Shown piece after piece: positions 24,127-27,800 of a stretch of 32,476 nucleotides of DNA; position 1 is the stretch's first letter, and each line of letters starts with the position of its first letter. The position numbers and the translations under genes were made by a program. A model generated the notes under the pieces. That model saw nothing but the letters and a program-made list of their open reading frames with translations, made no database searches and had not been told where the DNA came from. The stretch covers positions 1 through 32,476 of the forward strand of contig JAKAMF010000003.1 in assembly GCA_021813045.1 (NCBI GenBank), written 5' to 3'. Source of the DNA: a bacterium (GTDB lineage Bacteria; Omnitrophota; Gorgyraeia; Gygaellales; Profunditerraquicolaceae).

Positions 24127-24153
24127 TTGACATTTTGGTATTTGTAGTATAAT
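24127..24153 (+). promoter_or_regulatory. Candidate promoter for the micro-ORF/attenuator locus
   Basis: TTGACA (24127-24132) and TATAAT (24148-24153); both perfect consensus but with a short 15-nt spacer. Confidence 0.55.
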
Positions 24154-24195
24154 AACACTGTAAGCATTAGCAAACCTCCAACAGGAGACCAAGCT

Positions 24196-24222
24196 ATGCG
24201 TGTACAGAAAAGAAAAATCTAA
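24196..24222 (+). CDS. Putative 8-aa leader ORF (MRVQKRKI)
   Basis: GGAG 8 nt upstream of ATG; ATG CGT GTA CAG AAA AGA AAA ATC TAA. The stop codon overlaps the 5' edge of the terminator stem. Confidence 0.4.
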   Translation: MRVQKRKI

Positions 24223-24256
24223 AAAGGCAATTCTCGAAAGGGAATTGCCTTTTTTT
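24221..24256 (+). terminator. Intrinsic terminator / attenuator
   Basis: AAAAAGGCAATTC-tcgaaagg-GAATTGCCTTTTTTT. Confidence 0.88.
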
Positions 24257-24322
24257 GTCGCCGCAGAAGGCGGCGCACCGGCCGATCCGATAAGGCCGGG
24301 TGCATGAAAGGAGGTAAAGCCA

Positions 24323-24382
24323 ATGTGTAAATCATGCGGATGTAGCCCTAAGAAAAAGGCTAAAAAGAAAAAGAAAAAATAA
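24323..24382 (+). CDS. 19-aa Cys/Lys micropeptide MCKSCGCSPKKKAKKKKKK
   Basis: AAAGGAGGT 8 nt upstream of the ATG; CxxCxC followed by a polylysine tail; followed by an AGGGAGG-preceded ORF at 24401. Confidence 0.5.
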   Translation: MCKSCGCSPKKKAKKKKKK

Positions 24383-24400
24383 AAAAGGGAGGACTTAGGG

Positions 24401-24730
24401 ATGATAAAAAACAGAGTATTTCCCGTAGCATTGGATGAAAAAGAATCTTTCCGCCAGTTTGCCGAACGGCTTACCGGCTGGGAAGTCAAAGACAGCCACA
24501 TCAGAAAAATAAAAGTCCGCTCCTTCAGTGACCGTATTAAACGCCAAATCAGTTCCGATATCTGCGTAGGCCAGGAATTAGATAATAATCTTTCTAACAT
24601 ACCCGGCGAGCCGGTTTTAGCGATTTTTGAATCCAAAGAATACCTGGTAATTACTCCGGATAAAAGCAACCTTAAGGCAACGGTCTATCTTTTTGACCAG
24701 TCCGAAGTATTAGGCATAGAAAAAGAATAA
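24401..24730 (+). CDS. Hypothetical protein, 109 aa
   Basis: Good ribosome binding site (GGGAGG), coding-like composition; no family recognised. Confidence 0.65.
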   Translation: MIKNRVFPVALDEKESFRQFAERLTGWEVKDSHIRKIKVRSFSDRIKRQISSDICVGQELDNNLSNIPGEPVLAIFESKEYLVITPDKSNLKATVYLFDQSEVLGIEKE

Positions 24731-24795: not shown

Positions 24796-24823
24796 TTGAC
24801 TGTTAATCTGGTTATGTTATCAT
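24796..24823 (+). promoter_or_regulatory. Promoter of smc
   Basis: TTGACT (24796-24801), N16, TATCAT (24818-24823), 7 nt before ATG 24831. Confidence 0.6.
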
Positions 24824-24830
24824 TAATGCC

Positions 24831-27800
24831 ATGTATTTTAAAAAATTAGAGCTTATCGGCTTCAAGTCGTTCTGCAATAAAACCACTCTGCATTTCGAGC
24901 CGGGGATTACCGCGATAGTCGGCCCGAATGGCTGCGGCAAAAGCAACATTTTTGATTCTATCCGCTGGGTTCTCGGCGAACAATCCGTAAAATCACTGCG
25001 CGGCTCAAGCATGGAAGATGTAATCTTCAACGGTACGGACACCAAAGAGCCGGTAGGCATGGCCGAAGTAAGCTTAACTTTCGATAATACCAATAAATTT
25101 TTCCCCGTAGAAAGCGAAGAAGTAACTATTTCCCGCCGTATTTTCCGCTCCGGAGAAAGTGAATACCTGCTGAACAAAACCCAGGTCCGCTTAAAAGACA
25201 TTATGGATATCCTGCTCGGCACGGGTATCGGCGCAGAGAGTTATTCGATCGTCCCGCAGGGAAAAATCGACATGATCCTCAGTTCGCGGCCGGAAGACCG
25301 GCGGCTGATTTTTGACGAAGCCAGCGGTATCACTAAATATAAGGCGCAAAAAAGAGAAGCCTTGCGCCGCCTGGAAGAAACCGAACAAAATTTACTCCGG
25401 GTCAATGATATTATTACCGAAGTAAAGCGGCAGATCGGCTCACTGGAAAGACAGGCTAATAAAGCCCGCAAATATAAAGACGCTTTTGAAGAATTAAAAA
25501 ATAAAGAGTTAGTTTTAGGCGTTTTGCAAAAAAATGAAATCAATAAATTAAAGATCCAGATCGCAGAAAACATCAGCGCGCTCACCCAGGAAGAAAACCG
25601 GTTAAGCCAAATAATCAAAGAACAGGAAGACGGTATTTCCGGCTCGCAAACAGAATTAAAAAACCTGGAAGAACAAATTTTAAGCTCTCGCACGCAATTA
25701 ATTACCCTGGAAAACTTAATTACCCGCAGCAAAGAGCGCATTGAATTAAACAAAGAAAGAATGAACGAACTGGACACCAACAAAACATCTTTGGCTGCAC
25801 AAGCAGAACAATCAAAAAGCCGGCTTTTAACTGACGGAGAAAAAATAAACCTGCTGCGCCTGGAATATGCTAATCTTAAAAATAATATTGAATCCAAATC
25901 CGCGATTTTTAAAGAAAAGGAATTACTCTTAAATAACATTGCCGAAGCAATAAAATTATCCCTGGAAAACATTGCTTCCGGAAAAAAGTCAATTCTGGAT
26001 ATTCTCACTAAAATCACCCACACCAAGAACGAATTAACCGATTGCAATTCTAAACAGCAAATCCAGCAGGCCCGTAAAAAACGCTTGGAAATCGAACGGG
26101 CAAAAATAAACGAGGAGAAGGCGTCAGCCGAAGCATCGCTTGCCGCCACCAAACAGGAACTAGACCAGATTAACGCGGGATACGAAACTATCAGTTCTAA
26201 AACATCCTCGCTAAAAAATGCGCTGGAAGAAGAAAAAAACTCCTTAAAGAACCTTGGGCAAATCATCGAAGAACTGGCAAAACAAAAACTTACCTTAGAA
26301 TCGCAAAAACAATTTATCCAGGAACTGCGCACTAAGTATGATGATATCAGCGAAACAATGAACGCAGTAATCTATCTGGATAAGCTGCCTAATGAAAAAA
26401 TTAGCGGCCTGGTAGTAAGGATTACTGACAGCGCTAATCAACCGAACCATGAAAATAACTACCAGCTCAAGGTTTCCGGCGAAGCTAAGCCGTTTGACTT
26501 AGATACACAAAAAATCGCGGAAAGAATCCTGAGCCTGGAAGAAAAAATCAACGCTTTAAAAAATAACCAAACCGATAAGCAAACCACAATCTCCAACCAG
26601 GAAAACCAGCTAAACGCCCTGCATGATGAGCTGCGCGCTCAAGAAATAATCCTGGCCAATAAAAAAGCCTCTTATCAAGTTAACCTCGACCAGTTCAACC
26701 GGCTAAACGAAGAATATACTTTAGCTAACTTGGAATTAGAAGAGGTTGAAACAGATTTAATTGCCATAGGCCAGAAGAATACCGCTTTACAAGCCCAGCT
26801 TAACGAATTGGATAACCAGCAAAAAACTAAAGAAAGCCTGATCACCAATGAACAAAATAATATTTCTATCAACAATAGCCAAAAAGAAGGGGCGCTGGTT
26901 ATTATTACCCAGATCAAAACCGAACTTGAGGCGTTGACTAAACGGATTAATTCCGATGATATAAACTTAAAGGCGCTGGAAGAAAGATATAACCAGGACA
27001 AAGAAAGCGTCTCGAATATTGAAACGCAAATTAACGACTGCGCGGCCAAACATAAAATATTAGAGGCGGAAAACGAAGAATTGGGCAATAAAATCGTCCA
27101 GACCAACCTGGATATCGTTGACCAAAGCACTTCGCTTAAAGAAACTGAAGCTAAATTTAAAGGCATCTCTTCCGGCATTAGCGAGATTATCAAACGGATA
27201 GACACGGATAAACAATCCCTGGACAGCCTAAAAAACAGAACCTACCAGCTGCAAATGCAGGATAAAGACGCGCAATATAAGTACCTGGCCCTGAGCGAGC
27301 GCCTGGCGCAAGCCTATAAGATCGACCTGGAACAACTAAACGAGACATCCCTGCTAGACGTTGACCTGCAGCAGATTAACCTTGAGATACTCTCTGAAGA
27401 AATTAACCGTATGAAAGACAGGGTGAATTCTTACGGCTCGGTAAACCTGGTGGCAATTGAAGAATACGACGAATTAAAGAAACGCTATGACTTTCTTACC
27501 CAACAACAAACCGACCTGGTCACAGCCAAAGAATCCCTGCGCGAAGCGATCAATAAAATCAACCGCACCACTAAACAAATGTTTTTAGAAACGTTTGAAA
27601 AGGTGCGCGTGGAATTCCGCAATTATTTCAAACTCTTATTTAACGGCGGAGACGCGCAGGTCTACCTGATCGATGAACAGGACCCGCTGGAATCCGGCAT
27701 AGAAATTATCTGCCGGCCTCCGGGTAAAAAACTGCAGAATGTCCTGCTTTTATCGGGCGGTGAAAAATCAATGTCAGCTATCGCATTGATCTTCGCGATC

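Follow-up and report, generated by a model that had tools for sequence, protein, structure and literature searches.

A leader reading frame and terminator conserved with a 109-residue protein gene in Omnitrophota: a probable translation-coupled transcription attenuator

Architecture of the locus

The window, i.e., the whole 32,476-nucleotide stretch of DNA analysed here (contig JAKAMF010000003.1 of assembly GCA_021813045.1), stems from a 1.18-Mb draft genome that is 89% complete; the genomes of its relatives are also drafts. On the forward strand at 24127–24256, downstream of etfA, lies a compact array of promoter, Shine-Dalgarno (SD) sequence, leader open reading frame (ORF) and intrinsic terminator. 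Direct reading of the sequence confirms this anatomy to the base, and all coordinates given in a preliminary description of the locus are correct. The sigma-70-type promoter (24127–24153) combines TTGACA (24127–24132) and TATAAT (24148–24153) across a spacer of 15 nt, and was overlooked by a consensus scanner because that program demands 16–18 nt. It is followed by CTCC (24176–24179), AACA and the leader SD GGAG (24184–24187), and then by an eight-codon ORF, MRVQKRKI (24196–24222; ATG at 24196, TAA at 24220–24222). The terminator (24221–24256) has a 15-bp stem (24221–24235 paired with 24240–24254) and a T-tract reaching to about 24256; its predicted stability is –19.7 kcal/mol, and the region as a whole folds beyond chance (z = –5.7). 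A leader ORF with an equally good SD that ends at the terminator arises in 0.3% of shuffled sequences (p = 0.003). No covariance model of Rfam matched the window at gathering score, i.e., there is no known riboswitch, T-box or ribosomal-protein leader.

The terminator lies 99 nt after the etfA stop codon, and the ATG of the 109-aa protein gene (24401–24730, forward strand, preceded by GGGAGG) is found 145 nt further on. The SMC gene that follows, at 24831, has a promoter-like site of its own (24796–24823). The 109-aa protein has no match in Pfam or NCBIfam. It is predicted to form a helix and a six-stranded barrel, in a structure model of moderate quality (pLDDT 74.5, one of five models good), and searches of the PDB by sequence and by fold gave no significant match, the weak similarities being to bL19/SH3-like barrels at E > 0.03.

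Between terminator and gene, an ORF for a 19-residue Cys/Lys micropeptide, MCKSCGCSPKKKAKKKKKK, is present at 24323–24382 (forward strand, ATG at 24323, TAA stop) with the SD AAAGGAGGT at 24307–24315. The micropeptide had been included in the proposed regulatory locus; the ORF is there, but none of the other six leaders described below has it, and it is not part of the conserved regulator. Similar short Cys peptides are encoded elsewhere in three family genomes: those at L044, L045 and L046 (MCKTCGCSPCKCG..., MCKSCGCKKKPRK) resemble the micropeptide in their first residues and stand after other genes, one of them msrA-like.

The unit is conserved with the 109-aa protein gene

Of 108 genomes of the family, 7 carry the 109-aa gene, every copy in a different genus. 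An order-wide search found the protein in no additional genome, and a GTDB scan returned four of the members already known. Upstream of all seven copies the same arrangement is found, with a promoter-like site, an SD and leader ORF, a strong intrinsic terminator and then the gene. The promoter-like hexamers stand at the equivalent place in every member (8–12 of 12 matches, spacing 15–17 nt), and the nearest relative, L002, shares the perfect 12/12 hexamers and the 15-nt spacer of the window. The claimed core of promoter, SD, leader ORF and intrinsic terminator is real. The terminators between promoter and gene range from –14.6 to –19.7 kcal/mol. The preliminary description had staked its interpretation on relatives keeping the leader ORF and hairpins, and it survives that test, the unit being kept with the gene in seven genera.

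The upstream neighbours differ. Three members, the window, L002 and L004, have etfA immediately upstream; it is not a neighbour in L003, L006 and L036, and in L005 another gene intervenes. Conversely, among genomes without the 109-aa gene, the sequence 3' of etfA contained no such unit wherever it could be read (three loci were unreadable); G043 gave one weak AT-rich call there, which is not a terminator of this kind. Since the neighbours vary and the unit is absent behind etfA where the gene is missing, the unit belongs to the 109-aa gene. In L002 and L006, furthermore, the SD of the gene follows the T-tract by about 10 nt, which leaves no room for a second promoter, and the gene must therefore be transcribed through the terminator.

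The distance from start codon to terminator stem is fixed

If each leader is represented by the start codon whose SD is best, and the position of the stop is ignored, the distances from start codon to terminator stem are 25 (window), 30, 25, 27, 26, 25 and 29 nt. Their standard deviation is 1.9 nt, compared with a mean of 15.9 nt in shuffles, and none of 400 shuffled sets was as tight. This spacing is held despite 5'UTRs of 28–78 nt, with transcription starts set by eye from the –10 boxes of the seven sequences, and despite leader ORFs of 8–21 codons. The stop codons are less regular: relative to the stem they lie at –1 in three leaders, at +12 or +13 in three and at +37 in one, so that some stops are at the base of the stem, others within the loop and one shortly beyond the T-tract. 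A stop overlapping the terminator, emphasized in the earlier account, holds for the window but is not a constant feature (three of seven); what is constant is the start-to-stem distance.

When dinucleotide shuffles of each leader were scored for an ORF with an SD at least as good and a stop inside the terminator, six leaders gave p = 0.003 (window), 0.010, 0.002, 0.07, 0.003 and 0.014; in L005 no ORF stops in the terminator, and the ORF runs through it to end just past the T-tract. Four leader peptides open with MR[V/I] and spell the arginine with four different codons (CGT, CGG, AGA, AGG), as expected if the ORF is translated. Common to six of the seven peptides is only M-[RK]-x, with no conservation beyond the start, and they contain neither a conserved arrest peptide nor a shared run of regulatory codons. 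No alternative antiterminator hairpin appeared in the folds, in which the terminator stays formed.

Pairing over the leader Shine-Dalgarno sequence

In the minimum-free-energy fold of the window a possible leader hairpin spans 24164–24199 (forward strand), with an outer stem GCAUUAGC/GCUAUGC that includes the start codon and an inner stem CUCC/GGAG over the SD. The preliminary description proposed this sequestered SD as a possible switch. The CTCC/GGAG complementarity is present, and pairing of the SD over the seven leaders gives a combined p of about 0.01 (Fisher's method, calculated by hand); taken singly, the values are 0.064 (window), 0.08, 0.65, 0.81, 0.014, 0.076 and 0.21, so that sequestration is individually significant only in L005 and near chance in L003 and L004. 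A pairing UUAGC...CCUC / GAGG can be drawn in L001, L002 and L005, the hairpin over the SD is absent from L036, and no loop is conserved among the leaders. Support for an SD-sequestering hairpin is modest and not uniform across the leaders.

The structured linker is a dispersed repeat

The two GC-rich hairpins between terminator and micropeptide were formerly counted as part of the attenuator. They are real, but constitute one copy of a dispersed two-hairpin element (24260–24303, reverse strand, i.e., reversed relative to the gene; R2 match of 61 bits) that is absent from L002, and by sequence comparison the linker is an accessory insertion rather than a component of the conserved regulator. 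BLAST found 14 other matches to the element in the same genome, and a hairpin-only model found 43 copies there (43, 29, 11 and 10 in four genomes). An SD and start codon follow within a few nucleotides in 26 of the 40 copies of this genome that were read, the window copy having the opposite orientation; in a search for a terminal tag of the GTAG/CGTC type, the constant neighbour was AAGGAG/GAGGAG, also the SD of the gene. A model of the element that takes in SD and ATG matched in 26 of 40 relatives. The genes whose SD the element immediately precedes are unrelated (enolase at L090, L077–L103 and others). In the enolase 5'UTR of this genome it directly precedes AAGGAG; in that of G006, G007, G009 and G010 the SD is present and the element is missing. 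The loop of one copy in some cases holds another copy, which suggests mobility, and the element looks like a mobile one that ends up beside AAGGAG. A RAYT-type mobiliser is not supported, as no Y1_Tnp was found in the 89%-complete genome and clear copies occur at only 2 of 20 Y1 loci. The elements are short, palindromic and intergenic and number in the tens, and in this they are reminiscent of REP-type repeats (PMC3733652), from which they differ in having two hairpins directly 5' of AAGGAG and, at most loci examined, no RAYT/Y1 gene beside them. Other inverted repeats occupy the interval between terminator and gene in L004 (L030) and L005 (L031), and this gap seems to collect hairpin repeats.

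Related units before other genes

A model built from the seven leaders matched in 57 of 105 family genomes, and in many of the matches an SD and a mini-ORF are followed by a terminator; the genes behind them are unrelated and include carB (four genera), pyrR and mscS-like, lipoprotein and sensor genes. Their combined p of 1e-5 is biased by model selection, and since the model partly builds in the constant distance, we limit the spacing evidence to the seven members and to a set found by terminator pattern. As the leader model may select for the class features, an independent search was made with the terminator pattern alone, which gave 24 sites in 17 genomes. Mini-ORFs are enriched at the 16 sites that we assigned to positions before genes, not counting three that belong to the 109-aa family (Fisher p = 0.004), and not at five other pattern sites, a small control (p = 0.94). 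Those with a fair SD start 22–31 nt before the terminator. Five matches of the leader model (L187, L189, L198, L200 and L276) were left out of the class because they resemble the N-terminal coding part of exported proteins more than leaders; in L187, L189, L198 and L276 a terminator-like hairpin and T-tract lie inside the apparent N-terminal coding region of an exported 'ARQxLEYN' family, just before the signal peptide.

Three of the four carB leaders reach p = 0.02–0.06. At L261, L264, L273 and L278, in four genera, the leader ORF before carB reaches an intrinsic terminator, enters it or passes beyond it; one example, MLLVINITYAS, stops at the stem base. The arrangement resembles attenuation of the pyrBI type. 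Upstream of pyrR at L186 and L274 the intrinsic terminator has another sequence, AACCCAA...TTGGGTT, and at L186 a leader ORF stops in its loop.

These units may represent a class of minigene attenuators found throughout this Omnitrophota family: an SD and an ORF of 4–14 codons (MRFN, MRIK, MGFK, MSLDIRI...) would start 22–31 nt before a near-constant terminator (AAGGCAAC/TTCTC...GGTTGCCTTTT) ahead of many unrelated genes, and read-through would directly report the capacity for translation initiation. The proposal is plausible but tentative, and we hold it to be somewhat less probable than its opposite; it is not established, and the evidence is weaker than for the seven members. If it is correct, many genes of these bacteria may depend on translation capacity through one design.

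Proposed mechanism and its alternatives

We propose, with a probability of about two in three, that 24127–24256 controls the gene at 24401 as a translation-coupled transcription attenuator, of the pil1/pyrBI type and without regulatory codons. RNA polymerase would start some 6–8 nt after 24153 and, unhindered, would stop at 24256, which yields a transcript of roughly 95 nt. A ribosome loading at the leader SD would start 25 nt before the terminator stem, and a ribosome covers roughly 12–15 nt downstream of its P site. From starts 25–30 nt before the stem, in ORFs that end at, in or past the hairpin, its leading edge should therefore cover the 5' arm within a few codons. The hairpin would then be blocked, and the polymerase would read into the gene. 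Expression would follow the speed and frequency of mini-ORF initiation, which may in turn be determined or adjusted by a hairpin over the SD and start codon. Experiments in other systems are in agreement with this: the ribosome represses terminators that lie within about 17–27 nt of a stop codon, and a stop shifted from 28 to 5 bp lowers termination from about 90% to under 10% (PMC4824070). The pil1 leader is ON, and needs leader translation, when its stop lies in the hairpin or 4 bp ahead of it (PMC3894217). The earlier suggestion that a leader stop beside the terminator permits read-through accords with these measurements. It is the geometry of ORF and stem, together with these experiments and the lack of room for a promoter in L002 and L006, that led us to choose translation-coupled antitermination; that leader translation raises read-through we infer, and occlusion by the ribosome is its likely mode by analogy.

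The unit could instead be a constitutively leaky terminator that lets a fixed fraction of polymerases pass, its leader ORF having no regulatory role. The lack of a visible ligand, arrest peptide or regulatory codon and the modest support for the SD hairpin fit such an arrangement, which is nevertheless unlikely, given a start-to-stem distance held to 25–30 nt over seven genera and strong-SD ORFs ending at the terminator that are individually improbable. We consider it quite unlikely that the leader senses a ligand or protein, as a riboswitch or in autoregulation, with the SD/start hairpin as sensor and the ORF as output: the window has no Rfam match, the hairpin scores at about chance level in L003 and L004, is missing from L036 and has no conserved loop, and the barrel lacks a significant structural match, against which stand the pairing drawable in L001, L002 and L005 and a predicted barrel that could bind RNA.

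Promoter and terminator by themselves define a short transcript, and in the window the 109-aa gene lies 145 nt beyond it, as would suit a stand-alone RNA or peptide gene of about 95 nt that merely happens to precede the protein gene. Such independence is very unlikely, since conservation is lacking in the leader peptides, the unit accompanies the 109-aa gene and not etfA, and in L002 and L006 only about 10 nt separate the T-tract from the SD of the gene. Finally, the preliminary description named the possibility that the terminator simply ends an etf transcript, which its position 99 nt after the etfA stop would allow. This is largely refuted and we reject it: a promoter separates etfA from the terminator, L003, L006 and L036 have neighbours other than etfA, L005 has another gene in between, and readable genomes without the 109-aa gene have no such terminator after etfA.

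The proposed attenuator would be among the simplest possible: it would need neither a sensor fold nor regulatory codons, but only a hairpin and a ribosome positioned at a defined distance from it. A literature search on the phylum Omnitrophota found no regulatory-RNA device described; if our reading is correct, one is described here from sequence. The seven-genus comparison turns the question of whether leader translation sets read-through into one for a reporter, without culture of Omnitrophota.

Comparison with known attenuators

The unit is similar to the pyrBI/pyrE-type attenuators of enterobacteria in that a ribosome near RNA polymerase would prevent the hairpin, no alternative antiterminator being needed. 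In pyrBI a 44-codon leader and U-rich pause sites serve UTP sensing, whereas the Omnitrophota leader is A-rich and shows no U-rich pause tract. With the amino-acid attenuators (trp, his) it shares a leader peptide and a terminator, but it has neither a run of regulatory codons nor an antiterminator. Translation of a small leader ORF also controls an intrinsic terminator before the gene in bmrB-bmrCD of Bacillus subtilis (PMC4191407) and in other drug-induced leaders; bmrB, however, has alternative stem-loops and antibiotic-dependent induction, while the Omnitrophota unit has no conserved arrest peptide or alternative hairpin. The pil1 attenuator of Streptococcus gallolyticus (PMC3894217) has the same order of promoter, leader ORF, intrinsic terminator and gene, and a leader stop at or inside the hairpin, with translation preventing termination. 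In pil1 the switch is the number of GCAGA repeats, which moves the stop; the Omnitrophota unit, by contrast, has no repeats, and combines ORFs of 8–21 codons with a fixed distance from start codon to stem.
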